This document shows, in pieces, positions 18,809 to 30,006 of a stretch of DNA of 30,006 nucleotides (position 1 is the stretch's first letter; each line of letters begins with the position of its first letter). The DNA lies in IMG/VR virus record IMGVR_UViG_3300032267_000660, positions 1-30,006 of that record; one strand, written 5' to 3'. Both the position numbers and the translations under genes were made by a program. The notes beneath the pieces are model-generated. The model saw nothing but the letters and a program-made list of their open reading frames with translations, did not search any database and was not told the DNA's origin. Origin of the DNA: a virus.

Positions 18809-18810
18809 GT

Positions 18811-18990
18811 CGGCAATTTTTGCCTATAGGCAAATTTTTCCAGAGGGGGTAGGCAATTATTGCCTGTCTAATAGGTGCAAAATCGGCAATTCTTGCCTAC
18901 CAGCAAGTGCCGTGCCAAGTGAAGTGGGTAAATTCTGCCGAGTATATTTTGCCCATCGGCAGAAGTTGCTGGGCAAGAATTACCTACCAG
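18811..18990. repeat. Cluster of GGCAA/TTGCC palindromes, operator-like
   Basis: In 180 bases there are at least five related inverted repeats: GGCAATTTTTGCC (18812-18824), the overlapping perfect TTTGCCTATAGGCAAA, AGGCAATTATTGCCT (18851-18865), GGCAATTCTTGCC (18885-18897) and a degenerate GGGCAAGAATTACC (18971-18984), plus TTGCCCATCGGCA nearby. No gene is visible. The arms recur with variable centres, which fits multiple sites for a dimeric DNA-binding protein. The nearest candidate regulator is the ribbon-helix-helix gene just to the right, but that link is inference. Confidence 0.7.
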
Positions 18991-19006
18991 TTTAATCGCA
19001 CAGAAA

Positions 19007-19032
19007 AGCCCCCCCGCTTGCGCGAGGGGGCT
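19007..19032 (-). terminator. Terminator of the ribbon-helix-helix gene
   Basis: On the minus strand AGCCCCC and GGGGGGGCT pair around a 10-nt loop, followed by TTTTC. It lies 16 bases after the stop at 19049. Confidence 0.8.
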
Positions 19033-19048
19033 GTCCGCTCTCCTGGTA

Positions 19049-19318
19049 TTACTTCGCAGGAACGAGTGCGCCAGCGGCTCCCTCGTCGCCGCCCTTCTTG
19101 CGCTTGGCTTTTGCTTTGGGAGCCTTCGCAGGAGCCTTCACCGAGGGCTTAGGGGCGGGCGGAACCATTTGAGCCAGACCCAATTTGATTGCCCGGAGGG
19201 CGATCTGGCTCATGGATCTTCCGTCGCGGATAGCTTCGGACGCGATGAGAGCCTTCGTCGCGTCATCGAGGCGCAAGTTGAGGACGGAGGTGGCGGAGGT
19301 GGTGGGTGTAGTTGACAT
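19049..19318 (-). CDS. Ribbon-helix-helix-like protein with basic tail
   Basis: The 89-residue protein has V-L-N-L-R-L-D-D-A-T-K-A-L-I-A-S-E-A (about 13-30), then D-G-R-S-M-S-Q-I-A-L-R-A-I-K-L-G-L (to about 49). A short strand followed by two helices is the ribbon-helix-helix pattern of small repressors and antitoxins. The tail is an alanine, proline and lysine run ending K-A-K-R-K-K-G-G, which may add nonspecific DNA binding. Codons are much richer in G/C than in region A. It is a candidate for binding either the GGCAA palindromes to its left or the TGTAACAC repeats to its right; nothing in the sequence shows which. No toxin gene lies beside it. Confidence 0.72.
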   Translation of the reverse strand: MSTTPTTSATSVLNLRLDDATKALIASEAIRDGRSMSQIALRAIKLGLAQMVPPAPKPSVKAPAKAPKAKAKRKKGGDEGAAGALVPAK

Positions 19319-19602
19319 AATTTTGGACTTTCTAACTGCATGGCTCGTTCGGTTCGGGTGAGCCGTTCCCCGCTCGCTGGCGTAGTTGCTGGCGATGAGT
19401 TGAAACTACACCAGAAAAATCACATTGCAATACAATTCTGAAAAATTGTTGTCAGACAATTGCGCGGCAATAGTAAGTGCTGTGCCAAGTGTGAGCGGTG
19501 CGGTTGTGTTACATGATGTTGTGTTACATTAGGGGCGCAGCCCGAAGGGAGTGGTGATGTAACACAATACATTGCGATGTAACACAATACACACAAAAGA
19601 AA
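19319..19602. other. Intergenic region upstream of the RHH gene, with promoter and first repeats
   Basis: No gene is seen. On the minus strand TTGCAA, 16 bases, TAGTTT (within 19396-19431) is a candidate promoter for the RHH gene and would give a leader of about 80 nt. The first TGTAACAC-type repeats of region B appear from about 19504 onward, in both orientations. Confidence 0.55.
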
Positions 19603-19626
19603 AGAGGGAGGCTTGCGCCTCCCTCT
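19603..19626 (-). terminator. GAAA-family cassette terminator (GCAA loop variant)
   Basis: AGAGGGAGGC and GCCTCCCTCT form a 10-bp perfect stem with a GCAA loop on the minus strand, followed by TTTCTTTTG. It ends the unit whose gene stops at 19634. Confidence 0.9.
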
Positions 19627-19633
19627 GTGGGGA

Positions 19634-19912
19634 TTACTCTGCGAACAGGGTGTCCCATTCCTCGGGCGAGATGCCAGTCTTGATGAACTCTCGTTCATCA
19701 GCCGTGAGCATGGAGAACGCCCACTGGATAGGTTCACCGATTGACTGCCAAGAGTTATAGGCGTCCATGAACGCATTGAAATCAACGCCCATGAACATCT
19801 TCGTGATGCGACCCGATAGCTGGCTGATATTCTCAACCAGAATACCGCCTGTGATTGGGTTTTCCACGACTTGGAGTTGTCCTTCGATGAAGCAGCGAGG
19901 TGTATTAAACAT
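19634..19912 (-). CDS. Small phage early-type hypothetical protein
   Basis: I start this 92-residue protein at the ATG at 19910-19912, 9 bases after the -10 box. It contains Q-W-A-F-S-M-L-T-A-D-E-R-E-F-I-K-T-G-I-S followed by P-E-E-W-D-T-L-F at the C-terminus, a motif I know from small phage proteins of unknown function. A longer frame upstream would run through the promoter and repeat region and is not credible. It is one gene in its own promoter-terminator unit. Confidence 0.75.
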   Translation of the reverse strand: MFNTPRCFIEGQLQVVENPITGGILVENISQLSGRITKMFMGVDFNAFMDAYNSWQSIGEPIQWAFSMLTADEREFIKTGISPEEWDTLFAE

Positions 19913-19921
19913 AAGGCATAC

Positions 19922-19949
19922 AGAATACTCCAAACCAATCAAAGCACAA
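19922..19949 (-). promoter_or_regulatory. Leaderless-type cassette promoter
   Basis: TTGTGC (19944-19949), 16 bases, TATTCT (19922-19927), then exactly 9 bases to the ATG at 19912. A-rich sequence and a TGTAACACAA box lie directly upstream of the -35. Confidence 0.72.
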
Positions 19950-19968
19950 GAACTATTTTTGTATACAT

Positions 19969-20142
19969 TTGTGTTACATGGATATGTATGTGCCTGTGTG
20001 GAAGTGTGTTGTATTGTGTTACACCTGGCGCGGGGGAATGCGCGGTAATGCGACACGCTGTTGCTATGTAACACAATACATTATTTTAACACACATTACT
20101 ATGTAACACAATGTATTGTAACACAATACAAGCAAAAGAAAA
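19969..20142. repeat. Intergenic TGTAACAC repeat spacer 1
   Basis: A gene-free spacer with about six copies of GTAACACA or its complement, mostly embedded in ATGTAACACAATGTATTGTA-type runs. It also shares acacatta-c-tatgtaacaca with the spacer near 22280. Confidence 0.9.
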
Positions 20143-20160
20143 GGGAGCCTTTCGGCTCCC
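20143..20160 (-). terminator. GAAA-loop cassette terminator
   Basis: GGGAGCC-GAAA-GGCTCCC on the minus strand, followed by TTTTCTTTTG. It serves the gene ending at 20172. Confidence 0.9.
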
Positions 20161-20171
20161 CAATCTCGGCA

Positions 20172-20477
20172 TCAATCCTCCGTTTGCTTGATGAGGAAAT
20201 GTCCCCACTGATCAAGCCTCATATCGTTCTGTGGGAAGAGGTGAGAGAGATGAGACATTCTGATGACATTCTCCAGATTAGCGGTTGATGCGCGATCAGC
20301 ATTCTCGCGTTCCTCACAGAGAGCATCGTGAATTTCCAGTGCCTCCTGCGTGAGAATCCCCATTGAGCGATAAACAGCACTGATCTCGTGATCCTCGATA
20401 TGACCAGTGAAGCCGTCGAGTCCCTCCATTTTGAGGGCTGTGTTCCAGATGTTTGTAGTGTTGGAGTTAATTAACAT
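20172..20477 (-). CDS. Hypothetical protein, second gene of a two-gene unit
   Basis: A 101-residue acidic protein contains G-H-I-E-D-H-E-I-S-A-V-Y-R-S-M-G-I-L-T and later N-V-I-R-M-S-H-L-S-H-L-F. No family is recognised. The ATG at 20475-20477 is preceded by repeated CAACCA units rather than a Shine-Dalgarno site. It lies 26 bases after the gene at 20504-20719 and shares its promoter and the terminator at 20143-20160. Confidence 0.7.
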   Translation of the reverse strand: MLINSNTTNIWNTALKMEGLDGFTGHIEDHEISAVYRSMGILTQEALEIHDALCEERENADRASTANLENVIRMSHLSHLFPQNDMRLDQWGHFLIKQTED

Positions 20478-20500
20478 AGTTGTGGTTGTGGTTGTGGTTG
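20478..20500 (-). promoter_or_regulatory. CAACCA-repeat leader before an internal gene
   Basis: Repeats of AACCAC stand directly before the ATG at 20477. The same kind of leader precedes the ATG at 21104 and a looser one the ATG at 26192. All three are starts without the 9-nt promoter spacing. CA-repeats can enhance translation without a Shine-Dalgarno site; that role here is inference. Confidence 0.5.
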
Positions 20501-20503
20501 CGG

Positions 20504-20719
20504 TTAGCGGAGATCACTCTCAAATCCCGAAAAGATTTCCTTTCCGTATGGATTGTAGATTCTGACCCAGCAATCAGCCCAGTTAGTGTTGTGGGAAAGC
20601 TCATAGGCATCCCATGCAGCTCGCAAGGCATTCTGAAGTGCAATCTTCACCGACTTGCTGAAGCCAGCGTTACAGATGCAGTCCCGATTGCCAATGATTG
20701 TGTAGGTAACTTTGAACAT
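20504..20719 (-). CDS. Small hypothetical protein, first gene of a two-gene unit
   Basis: A 71-residue protein from the ATG at 20717-20719 begins M-F-K-V-T-Y-T-I-I-G-N-R-D-C-I-C. It has a helix with A-L-Q-N-A-L-R-A-A-W-D-A-Y-E-L and ends G-K-E-I-F-S-G-F-E-S-D. No family is known to me. The start was chosen because the -10 box lies 9 bases upstream; a longer in-frame ATG falls inside the promoter. Confidence 0.7.
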   Translation of the reverse strand: MFKVTYTIIGNRDCICNAGFSKSVKIALQNALRAAWDAYELSHNTNWADCWVRIYNPYGKEIFSGFESDLR

Positions 20720-20728
20720 AAGGCATAC

Positions 20729-20756
20729 AGAATATTCCAATCCGATCAAAGCACAA
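20729..20756 (-). promoter_or_regulatory. Leaderless-type cassette promoter
   Basis: TTGTGC (20751-20756), 16 bases, TATTCT (20729-20734), then 9 bases to the ATG at 20719. It is nearly identical to the promoter at 21518-21545. Confidence 0.75.
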
Positions 20757-20776
20757 GAATTATTTTATGTGTTTAT

Positions 20777-20891
20777 TTGTGTTACATCCTGGTTATGTTC
20801 AGTGTATTGTGTTACATGAGCGGCGAAGCCGGTAGCCGGTGGGATTGCCATGTAACACAATGTATTGTAACACAATACAAGCAAAAGAAAA
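20777..20891. repeat. Intergenic TGTAACAC repeat spacer 2
   Basis: A short spacer with four copies of the octamer in both orientations, including two direct copies 17 bases apart just before the terminator. Confidence 0.9.
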
Positions 20892-20911
20892 GGGGAGGCT
20901 TTCGCCTCCCC
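20892..20911 (-). terminator. GAAA-loop cassette terminator
   Basis: GGGGAGGC-GAAA-GCCTCCCC on the minus strand followed by TTTTCTTTTG. It ends the unit whose last gene stops at 20919. Confidence 0.92.
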
Positions 20912-20918
20912 AATCCTT

Positions 20919-21104
20919 TTAGAATCTTTCCTCCTCATCCGCGCAGGAGTTACAGATTGCATAGTCCCTGCGGAGGAAGACTTGACGCTCGCATCGCTTG
21001 CAAGCCTTCCAGACTGAGTTTTTCTGGACATTGTGGTAGAATTCTACATCCTCTTCGGATTCAATTCTGTAATCGCCGTAGTTGTCGTCGTGGTATGATG
21101 CCAT
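20919..21104 (-). CDS. Small zinc-ribbon-like protein
   Basis: A 61-residue protein from the ATG at 21102-21104. The acidic first half (Y-H-D-D-N-Y-G-D-Y-R-I-E-S-E-E-D) is followed by W-K-A-C-K-R-C-E and A-I-C-N-S-C-A-D-E-E-E, two C-x2-C knuckles that should bind one zinc. It is the second gene after 21137-21508, separated by 32 bases of CAACCA repeats. The role is unknown; DNA or protein binding is likely for such ribbons. Confidence 0.72.
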   Translation of the reverse strand: MASYHDDNYGDYRIESEEDVEFYHNVQKNSVWKACKRCERQVFLRRDYAICNSCADEEERF

Positions 21105-21136
21105 AGTTGTGGTTGGTTGTGGTTGGTTGTGGTTGA
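21105..21136 (-). promoter_or_regulatory. CAACCA-repeat leader before the zinc-ribbon gene
   Basis: The whole 32-base gap between two genes is made of CAACCA and CCACAA units running up to the ATG. No Shine-Dalgarno sequence is present. Confidence 0.5.
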
Positions 21137-21508
21137 TTACCAGTCTCCGCAATCGTCGCCAGCATAGACCATCGTGCAAGCTGTAATCGCAGGATGGGGG
21201 GGGCGATTGCGAGCGCGAATTGCTTCGATCTTTGCTTCCCGCTCTTTGCGGTAAAACTCCAATAGTTCCTCATGACGCTGTTCAGCCAGTTCGATTAGCT
21301 GACCTAGCGTGTGGAGGCATTGGGAATCCTTTTCGGGAAGCATGACACGCATGATCATGCCCATGAAAAATGCAGTGCTTTCCTCTTGGCGAGTGTAGTT
21401 CCACAGGGAAGCAATGATCTCCTTTGAGGCTTTAATCCGCTCTTGATTGATGCAACCAAGGATGGCGGCGATTTCATTGGCGAGTGAGAGTGCAGTTGGT
21501 TTTGTCAT
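21137..21508 (-). CDS. Helical hypothetical protein
   Basis: A 123-residue protein from the ATG at 21506-21508, mostly helical, with L-I-E-L-A-E-Q-R-H-E-E-L-L-E-F and a basic stretch R-K-E-R-E-A-K-I-E-A-I-R. The end (M-V-Y-A-G-D-D-C-G-D-W) is acidic. A coiled coil is likely in the C-terminal half. No family is recognised. It is the first gene of a two-gene unit with the zinc-ribbon gene. Confidence 0.7.
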   Translation of the reverse strand: MTKPTALSLANEIAAILGCINQERIKASKEIIASLWNYTRQEESTAFFMGMIMRVMLPEKDSQCLHTLGQLIELAEQRHEELLEFYRKEREAKIEAIRARNRPPHPAITACTMVYAGDDCGDW

Positions 21509-21517
21509 AAGGCCATC

Positions 21518-21545
21518 AGAATATTCCAATCCGATCAAAGCACAA
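21518..21545 (-). promoter_or_regulatory. Leaderless-type cassette promoter
   Basis: TTGTGC (21540-21545), 16 bases, TATTCT (21518-21523), 9 bases to the ATG at 21508. The 16-base spacer is identical to that at 20735-20750, so the two promoters are recent copies. Confidence 0.75.
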
Positions 21546-21565
21546 GAATTATTTTATGTGTTTAT

Positions 21566-21824
21566 TTGTGTTACATTACGCGTGTATGCGCCTGTAATGT
21601 ATTGTGTTACATCCTGGATAAGTCCAATGTATTGTAATGTATTGTGTTACACCTGGCAGCACGGCGCACGGCGCGAAGGGATTCCTAATGTAACACAAAT
21701 CCCTGTGTTACATTGAGATAGGTATTACAATGTATTGTAATATATTGTAATGTATTGTAATGTATTGTAATATATTATAATGTAACACAACATATTGGAA
21801 TGTAACACAATAGATTGTAAAAGA
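21566..21824. repeat. Intergenic TGTAACAC repeat spacer 3 with decamer run
   Basis: Seven octamer copies, including an inverted pair near 21690-21715 with a short centre. Between 21726 and 21780 runs an almost pure decamer repeat of TGTATTGTAA and TATATTGTAA units with 10-bp period. No gene is seen. Confidence 0.9.
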
Positions 21825-21852
21825 GAAGAGGGAGTCTTTCGACTCCCTCTTC
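21825..21852 (-). terminator. GAAA-loop cassette terminator
   Basis: A 12-bp perfect stem, GAAGAGGGAGTC with GACTCCCTCTTC, and a GAAA loop on the minus strand, followed by TCTTTTAC. It ends the unit whose gene stops at 21903. Confidence 0.9.
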
Positions 21853-21902
21853 AAGGATGGCTTTTCAGCTACCAGTTCATGACTGGGATTTACGACTCCA
21901 TC

Positions 21903-22133
21903 TCAAGGTGTTTCGGTCATGAAGCCGTTGTATTTTTCATACCAAGCGGCATCGTCATTGATCTTGATGATAGGATCGACGCGGGTGTTCTGGCAAACCC
22001 TACGGAAGTTACCTTCTTGGATTCCGTATTCATCGATGAGGACTCTGGTGAGTGCTTGGGCGATGAGGGATTCGGGGATTCCCATGTTGATCATTTTCTG
22101 TGCGAGTTGGAGTTGGAGTTGGAGTGGTGTCAT
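21903..22133 (-). CDS. Small hypothetical protein
   Basis: A 76-residue protein from the ATG at 22131-22133, starting M-T-P-L-Q-L-Q-L-Q-L-A-Q-K-M. It contains I-D-E-Y-G-I-Q-E-G-N-F-R-R-V-C-Q-N-T, and the R-x-V-C-Q-N-T part recurs in the protein at 25202-25513, so the two may be distant paralogues. It stands alone in its unit. The 3' gap to the terminator is about 50 bases, larger than in most units. Confidence 0.7.
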   Translation of the reverse strand: MTPLQLQLQLAQKMINMGIPESLIAQALTRVLIDEYGIQEGNFRRVCQNTRVDPIIKINDDAAWYEKYNGFMTETP

Positions 22134-22142
22134 AAGAGCTAC

Positions 22143-22170
22143 AGAATAATCCATTCCAATTAAATGTCCA
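22143..22170 (-). promoter_or_regulatory. Leaderless-type cassette promoter
   Basis: TGGACA (22165-22170), 16 bases, TATTCT (22143-22148), 9 bases to the ATG at 22133. The TGTAACACAA box is 19 bases upstream of the -35. Confidence 0.73.
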
Positions 22171-22189
22171 GAATTATTTTTGTATTTGT

Positions 22190-22345
22190 TTGTGTTACAT
22201 ACATGCACCCGCATTCTTGCATGATAGGTGTGGAAACATGTTGCAATGTAACACACTGCGTCAATGTAACACAATGCAACATTTTAGCACACATTCTTAT
22301 GTAACACATTTCAATACATTGCAATGTAACACATCACAATACGAA
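22190..22345. repeat. Intergenic TGTAACAC repeat spacer 4
   Basis: Five or more octamer copies. The stretch gtggaaacatgttg, caatgtaacacactgc and caatgtaacacaatg is nearly duplicated in the spacer at 25075-25125, showing exchange between spacers. No gene is seen. Confidence 0.9.
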
Positions 22346-22371
22346 GAAGGGGAGGCTTTCGCCTCCCCTTC
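22346..22371 (-). terminator. GAAA-loop cassette terminator
   Basis: An 11-bp perfect stem GAAGGGGAGGC with GCCTCCCCTTC and a GAAA loop, followed by TTCGTATTG. It serves the gp88-like gene. Confidence 0.9.
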
Positions 22372-22385
22372 CCCCTATGCACCTG

Positions 22386-23021
22386 TCAATGTTTTTTATA
22401 GTTCACTTGAAAGACGCTCTTATCCCAACAATTCCTGCAATCCCCACACTTGCCCTCCTGCGAGGATGAGGGGCAATTATAGTTTGAATCACTCGCACCG
22501 CTTACGCATAAGCCAAGGCGATTAGCGGCGGCGAGGGGGGGTTGACCGTCTAACATGAAAGCCGAGAGTCGAATCGTGAGATTGTCGGGAATTTTATTTC
22601 CAGCATCAACCCAGTCGGAAACAATTGCAATCTCCCGAGTCGGAAGCCAGAATTTGATCATTGGCAAACGATTGGCGACATTGACAATCTTTTGAAGATG
22701 CCATTCTCCTTGGAGGTCGCCCGAATCATGCCAGCGGAAGAAGCCGCTCTTTTCTTTCTTTCCAATTAGAAAAACCATCGCGTCTTCCCACGCCGAGTTA
22801 AAGAGGGATTTGAAACGCCTTTCCATCGCGTCCAGAACATTAGGGAAGACATAACGCCCCTTGAGAGCATAGCAAACCGAGCAAACCGAGTTTGCCACTT
22901 TGCGGAGTTTGCTTCCCGTGATGCATCGGCTGGCAGGGATTGAATATCCGTGGCAGGGCATTTTAGAAGGGGTTGAGAGCGAGTGTGTGATAGCTTGCGC
23001 TTGTTTGGGTGTGGTGATCAT
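22386..23021 (-). CDS. gp88-like protein
   Basis: From the ATG at 23019-23021 this is 211 residues. Cysteines are arranged P-C-H-G-Y-S (Cys23), Cys33, then S-V-C-S-V-C-Y-A-L-K-G-R-Y; later come F-F-R-W-H-D-S-G-D-L-Q, F-W-L-P-T-R and, at the end, K-C-G-D-C-R-N-C-W-D. This matches the gp88 family of phage proteins, whose function is unknown; the many cysteines suggest zinc or an iron-sulfur cluster. It covers the family core without the additions seen in the larger homologue at 9948-11339. A longer frame upstream reads through promoter and repeats and is rejected. Confidence 0.82.
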   Translation of the reverse strand: MITTPKQAQAITHSLSTPSKMPCHGYSIPASRCITGSKLRKVANSVCSVCYALKGRYVFPNVLDAMERRFKSLFNSAWEDAMVFLIGKKEKSGFFRWHDSGDLQGEWHLQKIVNVANRLPMIKFWLPTREIAIVSDWVDAGNKIPDNLTIRLSAFMLDGQPPLAAANRLGLCVSGASDSNYNCPSSSQEGKCGDCRNCWDKSVFQVNYKKH

Positions 23022-23030
23022 TGGAAGCAC

Positions 23031-23058
23031 AGAATCGCACAGAATAGAAAAGACGCAA
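23031..23058 (-). promoter_or_regulatory. Leaderless-type cassette promoter
   Basis: TTGCGT (23053-23058), 16 bases, GATTCT (23031-23036), 9 bases to the ATG at 23021. The -10 is weak by consensus, but its position is exactly the same as in the other units. Confidence 0.62.
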
Positions 23059-23077
23059 GAATTATTTCTGTATTCTT

Positions 23078-23257
23078 TTGTGTTACATGGGGCGCGTAAT
23101 GAATTGTAATGTATTGTAATACATTGTGTTACTTGATGAATAGATAGAATGTATTGTAATGTATTGTAATACATTATATTACATTGCATTGTGAATAGAT
23201 AATCGATATCCATGTAACACAAGTCTATGTGTTACTTTCAAAAAATGGAAAAGAAAA
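23078..23257. repeat. Intergenic TGTAACAC repeat spacer 5
   Basis: Four octamer copies and several TGTATTGTAA decamers. At about 23213-23236 TGTAACACA and TGTGTTAC form an inverted pair with a 6-7 base centre, just before the terminator. No gene is seen. Confidence 0.9.
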
Positions 23258-23277
23258 GGGGAGGCTTTCGCCTCCCC
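23258..23277 (-). terminator. GAAA-loop cassette terminator
   Basis: GGGGAGGC-GAAA-GCCTCCCC followed by TTTTCTTTTCC on the minus strand, 5 bases after the stop at 23283. Confidence 0.92.
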
Positions 23278-23282
23278 GAATC

Positions 23283-23654
23283 TCAAGAGAGTCGGTCAAC
23301 CTCTTCCATATCGCCTCGCCGTAGGGCGCAAGCGAGATCAACTTGACGATGAGCGTCCTCGACTGCCCAAGCTGGCGATCCATATTCTGGATAGGTTTCG
23401 TTCCAATGAGAAAGATCGATCTCCCCCCGATGAAGGACTTTGATTGCCAAGGCATCAGCCTTATCCCGATCTTCACCGAAGAAATGACGATGACGAAAAC
23501 GACGACCACCCTCTGTCATCGCCAGAACATCGAAGGTATGACGATAAATATAACCTTGTGGGTTGCACATATCAGCGAACTCTGGATTCTGATCTACAAC
23601 TGCGACATCCTTACGGACATCTACTCGTTCGATTTGGATTTTTGTATTAAGCAT
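23283..23654 (-). CDS. Phage early-type hypothetical protein
   Basis: A 123-residue protein beginning M-L-N-T-K-I-Q-I-E-R-V-D. It contains R-F-R-H-R-H-F-F-G-E-D, L-S-H-W-N-E-T-Y-P-E-Y-G-S and a helical, acidic C-terminus. The H-W-x-E-x-Y-P-x-Y-G-S part is familiar from small phage proteins of unknown function. Its promoter differs: the -10 box lies 14 bases before the ATG and a GGAG occurs in between. Confidence 0.72.
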   Translation of the reverse strand: MLNTKIQIERVDVRKDVAVVDQNPEFADMCNPQGYIYRHTFDVLAMTEGGRRFRHRHFFGEDRDKADALAIKVLHRGEIDLSHWNETYPEYGSPAWAVEDAHRQVDLACALRRGDMEEVDRLS

Positions 23655-23668
23655 AGGATTGAGTCTCC

Positions 23669-23696
23669 AAGATATTCCAATCTGTTTTTATTGCAA
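23669..23696 (-). promoter_or_regulatory. Cassette promoter, longer leader
   Basis: TTGCAA (23691-23696), 16 bases, TATCTT (23669-23674). Fourteen bases separate the -10 from the ATG at 23654, so this unit departs from the 9-base rule; GGAG follows the -10 directly. Confidence 0.65.
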
Positions 23697-23716
23697 GGAT
23701 TATTTTGTGTGTTTAT

Positions 23717-23839
23717 TTGTGTTACATTTGGTTGCATCCAGCATCGTTATGTAACACAAATCCATGTGTTACATTATGGAAATTATAATGTATTGTAATT
23801 CCATGTAACACAATGTAATGTAACACAATACAATACGAA
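23717..23839. repeat. Intergenic TGTAACAC repeat spacer 6
   Basis: Five octamer copies, including an inverted pair at about 23751-23775 (TGTAACACA and TGTGTTACA with a short centre) and two direct copies before the terminator. Confidence 0.9.
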
Positions 23840-23865
23840 GAAGGGGAGGCTTTCGCCTCCCCTTC
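23840..23865 (-). terminator. GAAA-loop cassette terminator
   Basis: The same 11-bp stem and flanks as at 22346-22371, including the adjacent cccctatgc on the plus strand, so the two regions are recent copies of each other. It serves the gene ending at 23881. Confidence 0.9.
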
Positions 23866-23880
23866 CCCCTATGCCACCAC

Positions 23881-24336
23881 CTAAATCAAGATTGCCTTGA
23901 CATTCTCTGCTTTGACTGTCATCGCCAGAGGTGCGTCTTGGCGGTTCGGAAACTCACTGGCAAGGCAGAGCGGCTGAATTGTCAATTTATCGGAGAGAAC
24001 TCCGTTGAGGTAGTATTCCACCTTTGGCTCGAAAGCGAGTCCAGAAGCCGAATAGAAGCGGACATAATCAGTCCCCTTGTGTTCGATATGGAATGGGAAG
24101 TTCACCCATTGTCCCCACGGAAGACCTGCATTTTCCGATGGCAGGGAACCGTCTTCACGACCCTCTTTGACGAGTGCTTGGTTGTCATAGTCGATCCCAG
24201 CGCGGATAACGATGCTGGTGACTTTCTCCACGCAATCGGTGATACCCTTGCGAGTCTTGAGTTCCTTGCCGATGATGGCTGAGAGGTTCTGACCTTTTCG
24301 GGTGAACAGGAGGTTTGTGATGTCTGCTATTTTCAT
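23881..24336 (-). CDS. Phage early-type hypothetical protein
   Basis: A 151-residue protein from the ATG at 24334-24336: M-K-I-A-D-I-T-N-L-L-F-T-R-K-G-Q. It contains P-W-G-Q-W-V-N-F-P-F-H-I-E-H-K-G-T-D-Y-V-R-F-Y followed by a beta-rich C-terminus. I associate this pattern with small phage proteins found near DUF932 genes, of unknown function. A GTG at 24364-24366 would add 10 residues but has no family support. The promoter lies about 85 bases upstream, and a 19-codon frame fills much of that leader. Confidence 0.72.
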   Translation of the reverse strand: MKIADITNLLFTRKGQNLSAIIGKELKTRKGITDCVEKVTSIVIRAGIDYDNQALVKEGREDGSLPSENAGLPWGQWVNFPFHIEHKGTDYVRFYSASGLAFEPKVEYYLNGVLSDKLTIQPLCLASEFPNRQDAPLAMTVKAENVKAILI

Positions 24337-24411
24337 TTTAATATGGGGATTTCCGCCCCTTGCCACTTGATCGGCTGGCTTTGCTCCGTAGCCTCATTTG
24401 AGACTGGAATT

Positions 24412-24440
24412 ACTATCTCACAGGTCTTCCGATATGTCCA
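24412..24440 (-). promoter_or_regulatory. Cassette promoter with long leader
   Basis: TGGACA (24435-24440), 17 bases, GATAGT (24412-24417). The TGTAACACAA box is 19 bases upstream of the -35 as in the other units, but about 75 bases separate the -10 from the ATG. Confidence 0.6.
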
Positions 24441-24459
24441 GAATTATTTTTGTGTTTTT

Positions 24460-24660
24460 TTGTGTTACATGGAGATTGGTATTGTAATGTATTGTGTTAC
24501 CTCTTGGTGTATTGTAATGTATTATGTTATATTGTAATGTATTGTAATTTCTATTGGGATATCCCATGTAACACAAGCCTATGTGTTACTTTATAGGAAT
24601 TGTAATATATTGTGGTGTATTGTAATGTATTGTAATGTAACACAATATATTGTAAAAAAA
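24460..24660. repeat. Intergenic TGTAACAC repeat spacer 7
   Basis: Five octamer copies, several TGTATTGTAA decamers and an inverted pair near 24568-24592 (TGTAACACA / TGTGTTAC). No gene is seen. Confidence 0.9.
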
Positions 24661-24686
24661 TACAGGGAGCCTTTCGGCTCCCTGTA
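24661..24686 (-). terminator. GAAA-loop cassette terminator
   Basis: An 11-bp perfect stem TACAGGGAGCC with GGCTCCCTGTA and a GAAA loop, followed by TTTTTTTAC on the minus strand. It ends the unit whose gene stops at 24698. Confidence 0.92.
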
Positions 24687-24697
24687 TCTCCTGGGTG

Positions 24698-24973
24698 TTA
24701 TCGTTTGATGTATGGCTTGATGAGGTCGAGTTCCTCCAAGATATGGGTGATATGGTCAACCCAGTCATATCCGTAAACATCGCCCATTTCGAGGTCGTGA
24801 TAGGCTTGAAGGATTGTCTCCTTGGTTGCCCCCTCATACAATCCATCTCCGTTCATCGTGCATTCGATGTGATCATAAACCCTGTGCTTGTCTTCTGGAG
24901 TCAAGCCGATGAGGGTGTAGGCGGCGATGTTGAAGAGGACGGTGTTGTGTGGTGCTTGTGGTAGTGCTGTCAT
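24698..24973 (-). CDS. Small hypothetical protein
   Basis: A 91-residue acidic, helical protein from the ATG at 24971-24973. It contains A-A-Y-T-L-I-G-L-T-P-E-D-K-H-R-V-Y-D-H-I and L-E-M-G-D-V-Y-G-Y-D-W-V-D-H-I-T. It stands alone between its own promoter and terminator. No family is recognised. Confidence 0.7.
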   Translation of the reverse strand: MTALPQAPHNTVLFNIAAYTLIGLTPEDKHRVYDHIECTMNGDGLYEGATKETILQAYHDLEMGDVYGYDWVDHITHILEELDLIKPYIKR

Positions 24974-24982
24974 AAGGACTAA

Positions 24983-25010
24983 AGAATAATCCAATCGGAA
25001 TAATACACAA
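24983..25010 (-). promoter_or_regulatory. Leaderless-type cassette promoter
   Basis: TTGTGT (25005-25010), 16 bases, TATTCT (24983-24988), 9 bases to the ATG at 24973. The TGTAACACAA box is 20 bases upstream of the -35. Confidence 0.74.
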
Positions 25011-25030
25011 GGATTATTTTCTGTATTTAT

Positions 25031-25167
25031 TTGTGTTACATTCACCCCCGAATCCCATGTAACACAATGTATTGTGTGTGGAAACATGTTGTAATGTAAC
25101 ACACTGCTTCAATGTAACACAATGTATTATAATATATTGTAATGTAACACACAACAATACAAAAGAA
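25031..25167. repeat. Intergenic TGTAACAC repeat spacer 8
   Basis: Five octamer copies. The middle part (gtggaaacatgttg ... aatgtaacacactgc) nearly duplicates the spacer at 22228-22275. No gene is seen. Confidence 0.9.
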
Positions 25168-25193
25168 GAGAGGGAGTCTTTCGACTCCCTCTC
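25168..25193 (-). terminator. GAAA-loop cassette terminator
   Basis: An 11-bp perfect stem GAGAGGGAGTC with GACTCCCTCTC and a GAAA loop, followed by TTCTTTTG. It ends the two-gene unit at 25202-26192. Confidence 0.92.
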
Positions 25194-25201
25194 GGTTGAG
25201 G

Positions 25202-25513
25202 TTAGATTGTCAGAGCGTCGATCTCCACATTCGGGAAGACTCGACCTACTGGGTCGATTGCCTCCTGCCCATGCCACAGGGTATTCTGGCAGACTTGGCG
25301 AACATCCACATTCGAGAGGAGGTCTTGTTCCTCCTTCTTCCATGTCTTACCCCCCATCGTGTTCCATGCTTGGAAGGCGGCGATTGCTTGCCTGGGCATC
25401 ATCCACATGGTCTGGATTTCGAGGTTGGTGAATCCCTTGTCGCGCATCAGAGCGTAGTTTTGGGAGTTGATGATGTTGCGGTTTACTGCTGTTGTTGTGT
25501 TTGCTTTTGGCAT
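25202..25513 (-). CDS. Hypothetical protein, second gene of a two-gene unit
   Basis: A 103-residue protein from the ATG at 25511-25513, beginning M-P-K-A-N-T-T-T-A-V-N. It has an N-terminal helical part (G-F-T-N-L-E-I-Q-T-M-W) and D-V-R-Q-V-C-Q-N-T, shared in part with the protein at 21903-22133. It lies 22 bases after the larger gene of the unit, with AGAAAG a few bases before the start. No family is recognised. Confidence 0.68.
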   Translation of the reverse strand: MPKANTTTAVNRNIINSQNYALMRDKGFTNLEIQTMWMMPRQAIAAFQAWNTMGGKTWKKEEQDLLSNVDVRQVCQNTLWHGQEAIDPVGRVFPNVEIDALTI

Positions 25514-25535
25514 ATGGTTCTTTCTATTTTTGGGT

Positions 25536-26192
25536 TTACTGCTTGCTGATTTTGATGACTCCCATTGGGGAGTTACCATTGAGGTATACATCAAAGACTG
25601 AAAACTGGTAATTGTCAACATTAAATTTTTCGCGGATTGAATCGCATAGGGATTTTGCTCTATCCTCAAGAGAGTTTCCATATCGGTTGATGATGTTGGA
25701 AACAAACTTAACCCCTCTGGCATTGAGATAGAAGGTGAGGTAGATTTCCTCGGCGCATTCCATGTGGCTATCCTCGTGAAAGAATGAGTAGTAGAGACTA
25801 TCCAGAAGGTCTTCCGTAGGCATTCCACAGAAGTCAAGCCAGAAGTAGTTTTTCTCCTCCTCAAAGATGTTAATGAATCCCCAAACCTCATCGAAGAAGT
25901 TACCATTGGCGAAGTATCCGATTTGATTCGATTGCTTTTCTACCAGATCGTCGCCAACCCATGTAGCCTCCATGTAGTGCTTGGGAGTTTCACAGGAATC
26001 CCTCTCATATCGAACGAAGGTATTGCGAGCCATAGAGAAGTAGTTCTCAAATGGAGTCTCTTCCGATACGCCTCCAAGGTAATGTATTATCTTGGAGTGC
26101 TTTCCTGCCGCCCGAATAGAGCGAGCTATCTTGTGGCGGGATTCCATTTTGGTTTCGGCGTTTGCGACTTCTGATGTATAGAGTTTAGACAT
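25536..26192 (-). CDS. Hypothetical protein, possibly methyltransferase-like
   Basis: From the ATG at 26190-26192 this is 218 residues. It has a basic helical start, then E-T-P-F-E-N-Y-F-S-M-A-R-N-T-F-V-R-Y-E-R, and centrally N-Y-F-W-L-D-F-C-G-M-P followed by E-E-I-Y-L-T-F-Y-L-N-A-R-G. An L-D-[F/Y]-C-G strand end followed by a later T-F strand is seen in some phage and viral Rossmann methyltransferase-like proteins, but a clear SAM-binding G-x-G motif is missing. I treat the call as a weak possibility. An in-frame GTG at 26231 would add 13 proline-rich residues and is less likely. Confidence 0.6.
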   Translation of the reverse strand: MSKLYTSEVANAETKMESRHKIARSIRAAGKHSKIIHYLGGVSEETPFENYFSMARNTFVRYERDSCETPKHYMEATWVGDDLVEKQSNQIGYFANGNFFDEVWGFINIFEEEKNYFWLDFCGMPTEDLLDSLYYSFFHEDSHMECAEEIYLTFYLNARGVKFVSNIINRYGNSLEDRAKSLCDSIREKFNVDNYQFSVFDVYLNGNSPMGVIKISKQ

Positions 26193-26225
26193 AGGTAGTG
26201 GTTGGTTAGGTGGTGTCGGTTGACG

Positions 26226-26259
26226 ATTCACACCTTATTCCAATCAGAATAAACCGCAA
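26226..26259 (-). promoter_or_regulatory. Cassette promoter with CA-rich leader
   Basis: TTGCGG (about 26254-26259), 16 bases, TAAGGT (about 26232-26237). The leader to the ATG at 26192 is about 39 bases and rich in ACC and CAACC. A GTG directly after the -10 is the only start near the usual position. Confidence 0.5.
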
Positions 26260-26279
26260 GGATTATTTTCTGTATTCTT

Positions 26280-26532
26280 TTGTGTTACATTACCCAGTAG
26301 TTACTACAATGTATTGTGTTACTTCTTGGGTAATAGTATTACAATGTATTACAATGTATTGTAATACCTATTGGCAGCGCCCATGTAACACAAGTCCATG
26401 TGTTACATTAAGATATGTATTGTAATGTATTCCCCGGAATGTAACACAATACATTGTAGTATATTCTGAAGTAACACAAGGTATTGTAATAGATTATAAT
26501 ACATTGTAATGTAACACAATATATTATAAAGT
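26280..26532. repeat. Intergenic TGTAACAC repeat spacer 9
   Basis: Seven octamer copies with decamers between them, including an inverted pair near 26384-26408. No gene is seen. Confidence 0.9.
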
Positions 26533-26556
26533 AATGGGGGGCTTTCGCCCCCCATT
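26533..26556 (-). terminator. GAAA-loop cassette terminator
   Basis: A 10-bp stem AATGGGGGGC with GCCCCCCATT and a GAAA loop, followed by ACTTTATAAT, a weaker T tract than in other units. It lies 5 bases after the stop at 26561. Confidence 0.85.
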
Positions 26557-26560
26557 CTTA

Positions 26561-26845
26561 TTAGATGAACAGAGGATGGTTTCCTCCACCATCAGAATAG
26601 TATCTCAATACATAATGGGATTTGAATTGACTATCGGTGATGGCAAGCCAGAGGTTAACCAGAGCCGCCTTGAATGGAGTGTAGCGACGAGCATGGCACT
26701 TATTGGATGCCCAACCCTTACCTGTCCAGTAACCATAACCACCAACCGAATCGCCAGTCCAGCCGCCGATACAGCGGAGTTGTGCGATTCCGATTCCTGT
26801 CATGGGTTCATATTTTCCGTAGGGAGTGAATGAGTTTGGTTTCAT
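26561..26845 (-). CDS. Small aromatic-rich hypothetical protein
   Basis: A 94-residue protein from the ATG at 26843-26845. It is rich in glycine, tyrosine and tryptophan: C-I-G-G-W-T-G-D-S-V-G-G-Y-G-Y-W-T-G-K-G-W. Then comes a helix with A-A-L-V-N-L-W-L-A-I-T. The composition is unlike that of its neighbours. No family is recognised. Confidence 0.7.
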   Translation of the reverse strand: MKPNSFTPYGKYEPMTGIGIAQLRCIGGWTGDSVGGYGYWTGKGWASNKCHARRYTPFKAALVNLWLAITDSQFKSHYVLRYYSDGGGNHPLFI

Positions 26846-26854
26846 TGGACTTTC

Positions 26855-26882
26855 AATCTAATTGATTTTGATTTTATTGCAA
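26855..26882 (-). promoter_or_regulatory. Leaderless-type cassette promoter
   Basis: TTGCAA (26877-26882), 16 bases, TAGATT (26855-26860), 9 bases to the ATG at 26845. The octamer near its -35 is closer and in the opposite orientation to those at other promoters. Confidence 0.72.
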
Positions 26883-26894
26883 GCATATATTTGC

Positions 26895-27045
26895 ATGTAA
26901 CACAAATACGAATACGCGAGGGTGGGCGTGTAACACAATACAACACATGCGGCAATGCAACACCATGTTAGAATGTAACACAATGCGTTATAAAAACAAA
27001 ATTCATATGCTACCCTGGTGTAACACAATACAACATAGAGTAATA
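26895..27045. repeat. Intergenic TGTAACAC repeat spacer 10
   Basis: Four octamer copies, all in the same orientation here, with fewer decamers and more unique sequence than in other spacers. No gene is seen. Confidence 0.85.
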
Positions 27046-27050
27046 GATAA

Positions 27051-27080
27051 CAAAAAACCCCCACTCTTTCGAGTGAGGGT
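27051..27080 (-). terminator. GAAA-loop cassette terminator of the DUF932 gene
   Basis: A 10-bp stem ACCCTCACTC with GAGTGGGGGT (one G-U) and a GAAA loop, followed by TTTTTTG. Same design as the others, with a different stem sequence. Confidence 0.92.
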
Positions 27081-27096
27081 CTTGTGATACCTCTCT

Positions 27097-28131
27097 TTAC
27101 TTTGCGAGAGCGAGAGCTTGCTTGCCAAGTTTCAGAGCATCCTTCCGACGATCATCGTTCGCCAGCATTGCCACAAAGGATTCCTTGTGGGTTGCGGCAC
27201 TTCCCATGACCGAGCGGTAAGTGCGGTCAGCAGCAGAGGTCTTGCCTTTGCCTGTTCCCTCACCAGAAGTCCAGTATTCAGTCGCGCCGTTCGCCAGATC
27301 ATACAGGGACTCTCCCTTGTTACCGATGCCACGGCTGAACAGGGTAGCGATGCCTTGGGCAGCATTCATGGCGCGAGTGGAGAGTTCCGCTTTGTCAGTC
27401 TCCAAGCAGAAGTAACCTGCTGCCATCGCAAGAGCATCATTGTGGTCGCACTTGTTGTTCTCCAGATACTCCATGACTTCCTTGAGGTTTGCGCGTCCTT
27501 TGAGGATAGCGTTGAAGAGTTCGGGAAGGTTCTTCATTGCCAAGTCAGCATTTTTGGTATGATAGACCGAGAAACCAACCTCGCCAGCAGCAGATCGGGA
27601 TGCCATCAGCGTGTTCATGCAGACGATTCGGATGAGGGAATCGTAAGCAGTCATCGCCAGAGTGCCATCGTGACCAGTGATGAAGTTGACATAAGCCTTG
27701 AAGTTGTCCTTGTTGATGATGAGGTCAGAATCACCAATGTCAACCGATACGAAGAACTTCTTCGCACCTTCCAGAGTGCCAGCAGTTGTGATCTTAACAT
27801 CCAATCCCGCAAAGGATTCCTTCATGCAGTTGATTACATCGCGGTTATTGATGACCTTGTAACCTGCTTTGGGAACATGGAGAGGGACAAACTGCTGACC
27901 CGCATCCAGATCGGGACGAGACTGGCGCATATCAGCCACAAGGATTTTGTGGTTGGGAAGCTCAATCGTCTGTCCTTCGACTTGACAGGTGACAGGAGAC
28001 TCGATGATCTCATGGGAGAGGGAGTCAAATTCCGTTTCGGTGATTTCCTCGCGGACTTGCGCCAGCCCATGCCATTCGGTTCCTTCGATGGAATAAACGA
28101 GGTCGATGTTTTCTTCAATCATGTGTGCCAT
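27097..28131 (-). CDS. DUF932 family phage protein
   Basis: From the ATG at 28129-28131 this is 344 residues, M-A-H-M-I-E-E, close to the usual length of this family. The start region E-G-T-E-W-H-G-L-A, the centre F-V-S-V-D-I-G-D-S-D, then G-H-D-G-T-L-A and S-L-I-R-I-V-C-M-N-T-L, and a helical C-terminus match the DUF932 / phage-plasmid-like family. Members are common in phages and plasmids; their biochemical role is not established, though a link to DNA metabolism or recombination has been suggested. An upstream in-frame ATG at 28203 would add 24 residues not typical of the family. It is the only large gene of region B. Confidence 0.85.
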   Translation of the reverse strand: MAHMIEENIDLVYSIEGTEWHGLAQVREEITETEFDSLSHEIIESPVTCQVEGQTIELPNHKILVADMRQSRPDLDAGQQFVPLHVPKAGYKVINNRDVINCMKESFAGLDVKITTAGTLEGAKKFFVSVDIGDSDLIINKDNFKAYVNFITGHDGTLAMTAYDSLIRIVCMNTLMASRSAAGEVGFSVYHTKNADLAMKNLPELFNAILKGRANLKEVMEYLENNKCDHNDALAMAAGYFCLETDKAELSTRAMNAAQGIATLFSRGIGNKGESLYDLANGATEYWTSGEGTGKGKTSAADRTYRSVMGSAATHKESFVAMLANDDRRKDALKLGKQALALAK

Positions 28132-28238
28132 AGTAGTAGTGCCAGTTTTATAGAGTAGGCATCTCTGTTCCTGCATTGCCGTTATGTGGGAGGCATTGCC
28201 CATGTATCAGTCGGAACATAGGAACCGCTGATGAATCC

Positions 28239-28266
28239 AATCTAAACAATCTTATTCTGATTGCAA
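28239..28266 (-). promoter_or_regulatory. Promoter of the DUF932 gene
   Basis: TTGCAA (28261-28266), 16 bases, TAGATT (28239-28244). The TGTAACACAA box is 20 bases upstream of the -35. About 107 bases lie between the -10 and the ATG at 28131, so this unit has a long leader, unlike the leaderless ones. Confidence 0.72.
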
Positions 28267-28286
28267 GAATTATTTTCTGTATTCTT

Positions 28287-28545
28287 TTGTGTTACATGGA
28301 AAGCAAAATTGTATTGTAATGTATTGTGTTACTTGGAATGGTATTGTAATATCTTGTGTTACATTCCGGGGTATTGTATTAGAATGTATTGTGTTACACC
28401 AGGTTGTATTGTAATGTATTGTAATACCGGGGGGGTATCCCCAATGTAACACAATACACTACAAATTATTGTGTTACATAAAATACATTACAATATATTG
28501 GAATAGATTCCAATATAATTGAAATACATTCCAATACAAAACAAT
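28287..28545. repeat. Intergenic TGTAACAC repeat spacer 11
   Basis: Six octamer copies, four of them in the same direction at nearly regular distances, separated by TGTATTGTAA decamers. Towards 28500 the pattern decays into related sequence with ATTCCAATA units. No gene is seen in 28204-28632. Confidence 0.9.
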
Positions 28546-28577
28546 CCAACCCGATACATTTTATTGTATCGGGTTGG
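28546..28577 (-). terminator. Terminator of the gene ending at 28633
   Basis: A 13-bp perfect stem CCAACCCGATACA with TGTATCGGGTTGG around a 6-base loop, followed on the minus strand by ATTGTTTTG. Unlike the others it lacks the GAAA loop and lies about 55 bases after the stop. Confidence 0.85.
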
Positions 28578-28632
28578 TTGCATGAAAACTTTCTTCTAAC
28601 TATATGAAAATATAAACATCAACTATTCTATT

Positions 28633-28884
28633 CTAATTCAAATACATTATCCAATCACCTCCTTCATATTGTTTGCTTTCCAATCCCATTATTTGTCTGG
28701 CGCAATCAATCAACATTTGACTTCTGTTGAATAAAGCATCGGAATAGTTTGTTTTAGGTGCAGAGAATATCCACGAACTCAAATCATCCACCCAAACAAG
28801 GAATTTCCATTCGTCTTCAATCTGAACCAATCTTCCAATTCGTTCTTTTGCGGTTTCTACTGCGAAGTTCTTTAGTTTGCTCAT
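28633..28884 (-). CDS. Small hypothetical protein
   Basis: An 83-residue protein starts at 28884 with M-S-K-L-K-N-F-A-V-E-T-A-K-E-R-I-G-R-L-V. It contains E-W-K-F-L-V-W-V-D-D-L-S-S-W-I and a helix with A-L-F-N-R-S-Q-M-L-I-D-C-A. The gene is more AT-rich than the other region B genes. No family is recognised. Confidence 0.72.
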   Translation of the reverse strand: MSKLKNFAVETAKERIGRLVQIEDEWKFLVWVDDLSSWIFSAPKTNYSDALFNRSQMLIDCARQIMGLESKQYEGGDWIMYLN

Positions 28885-28893
28885 AAGGTTTTC

Positions 28894-28922
28894 AATCTAT
28901 TTCAATACTTTTTCATTGTCAA
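28894..28922 (-). promoter_or_regulatory. Near-consensus leaderless-type promoter
   Basis: TTGACA (28917-28922), 17 bases, TAGATT (28894-28899), 9 bases to the ATG at 28884. It has a perfect -35 and no TGTAACACAA box upstream. Confidence 0.78.
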
Positions 28923-29016
28923 CATTTATTTTCAATGCGAGTATCTGTGGATACAAGTGTGTGGGAGTATAATGTGTGTGGTAATAAAACACGCTTTATT
29001 GTAACACGCTGTTGCA

Positions 29017-29172
29017 TTACAACACTTCCTCGGATTCAAAGTCATCTTCTGATGCTATTAGATGCCATCCCAATTCATTGAGTGCTTCTTGTTGGGCTTC
29101 CTGTAATGTTTCTGCTTCCACCATAAAGGGGTCTTCTGTATCCAGAGTGCAATATACCATGTATGTTTTCAT
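29017..29172 (-). CDS. Small hypothetical protein, 51 residues
   Basis: The ATG at 29170-29172 overlaps the TGA of the papain-like gene as ATGA, and the frame ends at TAA 29017-29019. The product begins M-K-T-Y-M-V-Y-C-T-L-D-T-E-D and continues with a helix E-T-L-Q-E-A-Q-Q-E-A-L-N-E-L-G-W. A short strand, helix and acidic end resemble small phage proteins of unknown role. It is probably translated by coupling to the gene before it. Confidence 0.68.
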   Translation of the reverse strand: MKTYMVYCTLDTEDPFMVEAETLQEAQQEALNELGWHLIASEDDFESEEVL

Positions 29173-29579
29173 AGTTTGTAGTATCCGTAGTATTCTAAAT
29201 CAGAACAATCATGGGTGTCAAGCAAAATTCCATCTCTAATACAGGTCATGTGTTCGGCAAGTAAAACCAAATAGTTTTTTCCTTTGAGTTTTCCCACCTC
29301 ACCCACCCTTGCCTTGAACTTCAATCCAAAATGATCTGCAATCTTTCTAATTGTTTTAGGATATACACCACCTCTTGCAGAGGAAACATCCTTCTTTTTC
29401 TTTCCAATTCCTTTTATCTTTATGGAATTTAATTCTAATTGAGATTTTTTGTTGACAAGTTCATATATTTCCAAATAGGATTTATTCAATCCAAGGGAAA
29501 ATGCTCTTGTTACACAATCTCCTTCTGCTGTTCCAGAGAAATACATGGATCGTCCTCCATCAGAGTATTGGAATTTCAT
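29169..29579 (-). CDS. Papain-like phage protein (GDCVTRAF type)
   Basis: A 136-residue protein begins M-K-F-Q-Y-S-D-G-G-R. It has G-D-C-V-T-R-A-F (Cys22), S-A-R-G-G-V-Y-P-K-T (about 67-76), and A-E-H-M-T-C-I-R-D-G-I-L-L-D-T-H-D (His110, Asp121). I recognise the family from many phages: Y-S-D-G-G-R, G-D-C-[V/A]-x-R-A and H-[L/M]-x-x-[V/I]-x-D-G. The Cys-His-Asp order fits a papain-like cysteine peptidase or transglutaminase fold. The substrate is unknown. It heads a two-gene unit. Confidence 0.78.
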   Translation of the reverse strand: MKFQYSDGGRSMYFSGTAEGDCVTRAFSLGLNKSYLEIYELVNKKSQLELNSIKIKGIGKKKKDVSSARGGVYPKTIRKIADHFGLKFKARVGEVGKLKGKNYLVLLAEHMTCIRDGILLDTHDCSDLEYYGYYKL

Positions 29580-29588
29580 AAGCGACGA

Positions 29589-29617
29589 ACTCTATTCGAT
29601 TCCCCCCAAGATGTCAA
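29589..29617 (-). promoter_or_regulatory. Near-consensus leaderless-type promoter
   Basis: TTGACA (29612-29617), 17 bases, TAGAGT (29589-29594), 9 bases to the ATG at 29579. Confidence 0.76.
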
Positions 29618-29647
29618 ATTCTTTTTTCTTCTTTTTTTGGTATTCCC

Positions 29648-30006
29648 AATGTAACACAATCCCCTGTGTTACATGATAATTGTATTACAATGTATTATAA
29701 TATACTCGGTATAAGCCGTGTAACACAATATATTACAATATATTACAATGTATTGTGTTGTATTGCAATATATTACAATATATTACAATGTAATTTGTTG
29801 CGTTTTATTGTAATACATTGTAATTTTTTGTAATTTTTTGTAATACAAATCGAGTGTAATAAAGTAAAATGAATTAAAATGTATTAAAATAAAGTAAAAT
29901 GTATTAAAATAAAGTAAAATGTATTAAAATGTAACACAATGTATTGTAATATAATCACAAACAACCCAACATGGTTGATTATATTGTAATGTAACACAAT
30001 ACAACA
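29648..30006. repeat. Intergenic TGTAACAC repeat spacer 12, continuing past the window
   Basis: About five octamer copies, an inverted pair at the left end (TGTAACACA and TGTGTTACA near 29649-29674), many TATTACAATA units, and seven consecutive decamers of the types AAAGTAAAAT and GTATTAAAAT at 29861-29930. No gene is seen. The repeat runs to the end of the window. Confidence 0.9.

Follow-up and report, generated by a model that had tools for sequence, protein, structure and literature searches.

The stretch of DNA analysed here (the window) corresponds to virus record IMGVR_UViG_3300032267_000660, 30,006 bases long, in which copies of a short dyad lie between the genes of an early-type region whose last gene encodes a putative ribbon-helix-helix (RHH) protein. 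All window counts refer to this record alone, and the split into intergenic and coding DNA is based on gene calling from ATG starts. Region A (1-19 kb) carries T4-like genes, including those for RNA ligase and endonuclease VII, together with two tRNAs and one tmRNA, and has a G+C (GC) content of about 0.29. A sharp step at about 19000, from about 0.29 to about 0.45-0.5, marks the boundary with the early region, in which small genes lie on the minus strand throughout and terminators separate most units; GC is 0.41-0.52 over 19-28 kb and 0.32-0.36 in the final 2 kb. A chimeric assembly, suspected from this jump, was ruled out, as the relatives described below have the same gene order and GC step.

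The intergenic array and its predicted promoters

The window contains 66 copies of the octamer GTAACACA/TGTGTTAC (37 on the plus and 29 on the minus strand), 60 of TGTAACAC (37 and 23) and 59 of the 9-mer TGTAACACA (36 and 23), a dyad TGT-NNN-ACA with the asymmetric centre AAC. The first copy lies at 19505 and none is found in 1-19500, in agreement with the first-pass annotation, which had reported about 65 copies in both orientations, essentially intergenic from about 19.5 kb and absent from region A. All 59 9-mers are intergenic and none lies inside or overlaps a called gene, compared with a mean of 0.23 and a maximum of 2 in 300 dinucleotide shuffles of the same intergenic DNA; the shuffling and intergenic-enrichment checks that the annotation had proposed thus gave positive answers. 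Its statement that every gap is filled holds for gaps of at least 199 bp, of which 13 of 13 contain copies (4-7 octamers per gap), and not for four gaps of at most 132 bp (20478-20503, 21105-21136, 25514-25535 and 28885-29016), where no 9-mer was found. The clusters, with the minus-strand promoters and genes next to them, are as follows.

19505-19586: cluster 1, 4 copies
19970-20125: cluster 2, 5 copies; predicted promoter -35 19949-19944, -10 19927-19922, gene 19634-19912
20778-20874: cluster 3, 4 copies; predicted promoter -35 20756-20751, -10 20734-20729, gene 20504-20719
21567-21809: cluster 4, 7 copies, inverted pair at 21689-21712; predicted promoter -35 21545-21540, -10 21523-21518, gene 21137-21508
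22191-22333: cluster 5, 5 copies; predicted promoter -35 22170-22165, -10 22148-22143, gene 21903-22133
23079-23235: cluster 6, 4 octamers and 2 9-mers; upstream of GP88-family gene 22386-23021
23718-23827: cluster 7, 5 copies; predicted promoter -35 23696-23691, -10 23674-23669, gene 23283-23654
24461-24644: cluster 8, 5 octamers; upstream of gene 23881-24336
25032-25151: cluster 9, 5 copies; predicted promoter -35 25010-25005, -10 24988-24983, gene 24698-24973
26281-26518: cluster 10, 7 octamers; predicted promoter -35 26259-26254, -10 26237-26232, gene 25536-26192
26896-27027: cluster 11, 4 copies; upstream of gene 26561-26845
28288-28478: cluster 12, 6 octamers; predicted promoter -35 28266-28261, -10 28244-28239, DUF932 gene 27097-28131
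29650-29998: cluster 13, 5 copies; reaches the record end
19007-28577, minus strand: predicted intrinsic terminators closing units, stems 19032-19007, 19626-19603, 20161-20142, 20911-20892, 21852-21825 and 23277-23258
Minus strand: further predicted terminator stems 23868-23837, 25193-25168, 26556-26533, 27083-27054 and 28577-28546

Most clusters are flanked by a terminator on one side and by the next promoter on the other, and the sites adjoining the preceding terminator are mostly opposite in orientation to those on the promoter side. Relative to transcription, the two orientations of the 9-mer number 23 and 36; copies in the same orientation are spaced 15-69 bp apart, and 17 of 24 such spacings are multiples of 5.

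Because an exact IMG/VR search for TGTAACACA-N6-TGTGTTACA gave no matches, relatives were sought by protein. The DUF932-family early protein (27097-28131, minus strand) used as query yielded G001 (87 kb), G002 (96 kb) and G003 (64.6 kb), whose DUF932 proteins are 94%, 94% and 89% identical to that of the window and whose gene order is the same; they encode rIIA/rIIB, tail sheath, terminase and ribonucleotide reductase, which places the lineage in the T4 superfamily, with a terminase at most about 35% identical to those of cultured phages. Further relatives were recovered by an rIIB scan, while RHH-based scans for additional members returned only those already known. Megablast of the window against cultured phages gave no match, and a bacterial genome scan found no relative. 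The relatives are metagenomic and mostly partial records, among which there are few independent motif classes.

Eight copies in the window lie 20-21 bp upstream of TTGNNN-N16-TANNNT in front of eight different genes (one has TGGACA as its -35), and an A-rich tract separates the motif from the predicted sigma70-like core. These promoters are predictions, and the pattern was fixed by eye on the window before counting, so the other genomes provide the fairer test. The corresponding distance is 20-21 bp in G003, 22-23 bp in G001 and G002 and mostly 21-22 bp in G005, and eight genomes pooled gave 28 promoter-like strings at 20-23 bp, none at 24-29 bp and 14 at 30-34 bp, the last class lying one helical turn beyond the first; the promoter-proximal copies, at 20-23 or 32-34 bp, share one helical face. 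A spacing of 20-23 bp puts the motif centre near -60. The reading of the motif as overlapping the -35, with AATAAT taken as the -10, was dropped, since TTGNNN-N16-TANNNT gave a constant spacing in several genomes.

A candidate regulator that changes together with the motif

19049-19318, minus strand: candidate regulator, an 89-residue RHH-like protein; last early-region gene, adjoining low-GC region A
19403-19458, minus strand: predicted promoter of this gene, with the variant dyad TGT-CTG-ACA (19450-19458) 19 bp upstream of TTGCAA-N16-TAGTTT

Profile and fold comparisons suggest that the product of 19049-19318, whose C-terminal tail is rich in Lys and Ala, fits the RHH fold, a beta-alpha-alpha unit of about 45 residues; RHH proteins contact their operators as dimers, by way of the beta ribbon. 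Compared with PF01402 (RHH_1), its seven-member family gave a best E value of 3.1e-5, with matches in four of the seven members, and the family profile matched Arc/CopG-like PHROGs and PDB chains that are mostly RHH proteins; no close homologue was detectable in Pfam or PHROGs, where only weak matches were returned. An AlphaFold2 (AF2) monomer model of it places two helices at residues 19-51, with high predicted local distance difference test (pLDDT) values, after an extended N-terminus, and the model of the second RHH type, from G001 and G002, also has two helices after an extended stretch. Foldseek matched these models to the RHH domain of PutA, AtaR, CdbA, AmrZ, Arc and CopG, with MatP also among the matches (probabilities 0.5-0.98 but E values above 0.2). 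In the window, G001 and G002, but not in G003, the promoter of the RHH gene has the variant site TGTCTGACA at the spacing usual for the motif; this site may serve weak autoregulation. CA/AC-repeat leaders (CAACCACAACCACAACTATG, CTACTACTACTATGG), with no obvious Shine-Dalgarno sequence, lie immediately 5' of the start codon upstream of 20477, 21104 and 26192, and before the RHH gene in G001 and G002.

The arrays of the relatives cover the equivalent early region, and each genome of the TGT or CGT class has one dominant dyad, with a single centre (copies per genome in the list below). In G003, 32 of 33 copies of TGTAACACA lie within the first 10 kb, its matching early region. The same 9-mer is found once in G001 and not at all in G002, which instead carry TGTATGACA, also a TGT-NNN-ACA dyad, in the matching early region.

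AAC centre: window 59, G003 32-33, G053 8
ATG centre: G001 31, G002 39-40
AAA centre: G006 19
AAG centre: G049 21
AAT centre: G054 29
CGT-AAG-ACG dyad: G005 28

Among TGT-class records that cover the array end, 7 of 7 have there a gene for an RHH-like protein whose tail is of the Lys/Ala type; in G006, G049 and G054 this gene lies at the array end or within about 2 kb of it. The G003 protein is a homologue of the window RHH (64-67% identity), whereas G001 (34961-35188) and G002 (36708-36929) have at the same position a different RHH (MARPLKTK..MNSVRFALS..), 25-27% identical to it; the check proposed in the first-pass annotation, a changed motif beside a changed regulator in related phages, is thereby answered positively. 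The gene backbone sorts differently from these two elements. For six of the six genes with a near full-length match in each of G001, G002 and G003, the window is nearer to G001 and G002 than to G003, for example 96% and 94% versus 77% for gene 9475-9951 and likewise for DUF932. Its RHH protein, by contrast, has its match in G003 alone, and its motif is that of G003, so that lock and key have switched jointly. The 103-base leader of gene 23881-24336 matches that of G002 at 100 of 103 positions (97%), and the upstream AAAAATAATT tract and -35 are nearly unchanged, yet just upstream TGTAACACA replaces the TGTATGACA of G002, of which no copy is left in the window. An alignment of the residues presumed to face outward on the recognition strand pairs N-x-R with AAC, T-x-R with AAA and AAG, C-x-R with AAT and R-x-A with ATG; ATG is the sole class without AA at centre positions 1-2 and the sole class without the second Arg. 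It is possible, from these few cases, that the residues form a code for the motif centre.

Some relatives have other repeats in similar places. G055, G045, G046 and G052 carry longer dyads (ACAAGAAAA..TTTTCTTGT in G055), as do G047 and G048 (AGAAGATT..AATCTTCT in G047), and these six probably use another type of regulator. No clear array was detected in G043 and G044. Five cultured phages, Citromicrobium phage RXM and four larger ones, lack comparable arrays in their rII regions. In the rII region of Pseudomonas phage Astolliot (L177), eight copies of CCTGTATAC/AGTATACAG represent a possible unrelated operator. The repeats of distant GP88/DUF932 relatives were set aside as looking like different things (tandem 11-mers in L053, 13-bp repeats in L055 and GGGTAAACC in L081); the 11-bp unit CTTGGCCCGTG of L053 stands in 10 tandem copies at 8216-8326, directly after a GP88-family gene. 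The published intergenic motifs of JG004 and Loki were likewise rejected as not the same thing. Near-10-bp-phased TGTATTGTAA/TTACAATACA units, numerous in the window gaps 21720-21770, 28400-28430 and 29720-29800 and present in G003, not in G001 or G002, may be weak or decayed sites.

Region A has features of its own. A phage-encoded tmRNA (3601-4017, minus strand; tag EAEYIFNNADEFLGGVEEESYALAA) lies close to tRNA-Glu and tRNA-Thr. Nine otherwise differing minus-strand proteins (804-18550; low ends 804, 4760, 11348, 12043, 12770, 13753, 15734, 17803 and 18296) share an N-terminal leader, approximately M[KR][NSD]KDQ(I/L/M)LLE.[LIA]Y, found also in five proteins of G001, five of G002 and three of G003. 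It looks like the capsid-targeting leader cleaved by a T4-type prohead protease, and region A may therefore encode packaged internal proteins.

Proposed control of the early region and its alternatives

Combining the array, the promoter analysis and the comparison of relatives, we consider it likely that the array is bound by a phage-encoded RHH regulator, most probably a repressor, which governs the early genes as one unit. The repeats would be operators for the RHH protein encoded at the array edge (19049-19318), whose dimer would recognise TGT-NNN-ACA, with the centre, AAC in the window, setting specificity. One site near -60 would serve each early promoter on a fixed helical face, upstream of the A-rich tract and TTGNNN-N16-TANNNT core, and further phased and inverted sites would take up the rest of each gap as far as the terminator before it. 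On accumulating, the protein would occupy these sites and cover the upstream regions of the promoters, most likely shutting off the whole early region as one regulon; a phage of the same motif class entering a cell that already holds a copy would be silenced as well. Repression is judged most likely because the cores look usable by host polymerase, the sites, several times as numerous as the promoters, take up the gap that lies behind each of them, and closely related phages differ rapidly in specificity; fast specificity change and short promoter-proximal dyads fit a repressor of the immunity type (compare PMC6550527). The idea in the first-pass annotation that one phage- or host-encoded protein coats the region and switches it as a unit is partly supported, its core fitting the array and the joint change of motif and RHH well; the phage-encoded option is favoured and now has a candidate, the host-encoded one is disfavoured, and coating and switching are putative.

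Several observations weigh against this proposal. Taken alone, the window RHH matches PF01402 with an E value of 0.016, which misses the curated cut-off; the AF2 models are of moderate confidence, with predicted template modelling (pTM) scores of 0.41-0.42. The true partner of the motif could be some other DNA-binding gene beyond the 30-kb window. In the longer-dyad relatives (G045/G046/G052/G055 and G047/G048) no RHH was found at the array edge, and G043 has a weak RHH-like open reading frame though no array was detected there. The non-regulatory gene 29169-29579 also sorts with G003 (71% versus 26-27%), so local recombination is probably part of the switch. Tyrosine integrase (PF00589) and ParA (PF13614) were not found in 10 mostly incomplete records, and a usual lysogeny repressor is therefore not expected; early shut-off that also excludes superinfection by the same class is a better guess than lysogeny. 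A site centred at -60 also suits an activator.

The main rival, which we regard as unlikely, is indeed that the RHH protein is an activator that contacts RNA polymerase from near -60, as in class I activation, and raises early or delayed-early promoters of the phage's own regulon. The position of the motif centre and the helical phasing at 20-23 and 32-34 bp from the -35 would suit it, as would the weak sigma70 match of many core promoters and RHH proteins able to activate as well as repress, such as AmrZ (PMC3325190). Against it, the A-rich upstream tracts and TTG/TA cores look usable by unaided host polymerase, and about 50 of the 59 copies lie off the -60 position, spread to the upstream terminator in both orientations, which exceeds what an activator would need. 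Early genes of T4-type phages are, moreover, transcribed before phage proteins are present. That a host-encoded regulator reads the motif, with relatives of other motifs infecting other hosts, is improbable. Phage promoters can be controlled by host factors and the bacterial genome scan pointed to no host, but phages with 94% identical proteins differ wholly in motif, with the RHH gene switching alongside, and a single dominant centre per phage genome would be hard to explain by host regulators.

Similarly improbable is that the sites serve not transcription control but centromere-like partition or nucleoid-type packing by an RHH protein resembling ParB or a nucleoid-associated protein. The fold matches include CdbA and MatP, the Lys/Ala tails resemble DNA-packing tails, and Omega of pSM19035, an RHH ParB, has as its binding sites arrays of short repeats in both orientations, overlapping promoters (PMC9499535). 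The parS heptads of Omega, however, are contiguous, with 7-10 per site, and have a ParA partner, whereas the 9-bp dyads here lie 15-60 bp apart, dispersed over 10-20 kb in place of runs of four or more contiguous repeats; no ParA was found in 10 mostly incomplete records, and a fixed promoter phasing would be unneeded. Terminator-repeats-promoter units do recur between small early genes, and a mobile or passively spreading intergenic cassette with the motif as passenger would resemble the PeSLs, near-identical early promoter plus stem-loop cassettes between small genes of T4-type phages, reportedly described by Arbiol and co-workers in 2010; this we find the least probable, as the motif is replaced precisely with flanking core promoter and leader retained, the spacing is phased and inverted copies are maintained. 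To our knowledge PeSLs have no operator array or switching specificity. Packaging signals, uptake signals and a parasitic repeat, which the first-pass annotation had listed as alternatives, are unlikely given the fixed promoter phasing and the clean class switch.

The annotation had also invoked the stoperators of mycobacteriophage L5, sites at which a repressor halts transcription elongation. In the strict sense this precedent is not supported. Both systems have many short sites, here of putative repressor type, whose consensus varies between related phages, and a phage-encoded regulator, here a candidate. L5-clade (Cluster A) mycobacteriophages, however, are temperate, with integrase or parABS, carry 20-30 asymmetric sites oriented with transcription, and show motif divergence that follows genome distance (PMC6550527, PMC9283540). 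The window instead has 59 9-bp dyads in 30 kb, confined to the early region, in both orientations (not mostly one) and with asymmetry at the centre in place of an asymmetric 13-bp site; its candidate is an RHH protein, no integrase or ParA was found, and the motif switch in its lineage is decoupled from the backbone. Repressors of the Arc/CopG/MetJ type share the RHH fold and the expectation of cooperative binding to short sites, but known cases control one or a few operators, whereas a whole early region of a large phage is proposed here. The MotA boxes of T4 are likewise phage transcription-factor sites at promoters of T4-superfamily phages, middle promoters for MotA; the MotA box at -30 replaces the -35, while here a -35-like hexamer is retained intact, 20-23 bp beyond the promoter-side end of the motif.

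Operator arrays of exchangeable specificity are already known from temperate phages such as L5; here the lineage with a similar design belongs to the T4 superfamily and has no detected lysogeny genes, the protein fold is different, and the very compact dyad has a centre that differs among relatives more than 90% identical in some proteins. Tentatively, these phages without a recognisable integrase may possess a heteroimmunity-like system, in which a small RHH repressor, acting at about 20-60 TGT-NNN-ACA operators, silences the early region as a whole; the three bases of the centre (AAC, ATG, AAA, AAG or AAT) would act as a specificity code that switches with the RHH recognition strand and divides close relatives into mutually insensitive groups. 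If the proposal is true, the lineage would supply natural pairs of RHH protein and motif for reading the RHH-DNA specificity code and an example in which about sixty sites have switched in concert, and would allow a test of whether such phages block superinfection through transcriptional silencing.

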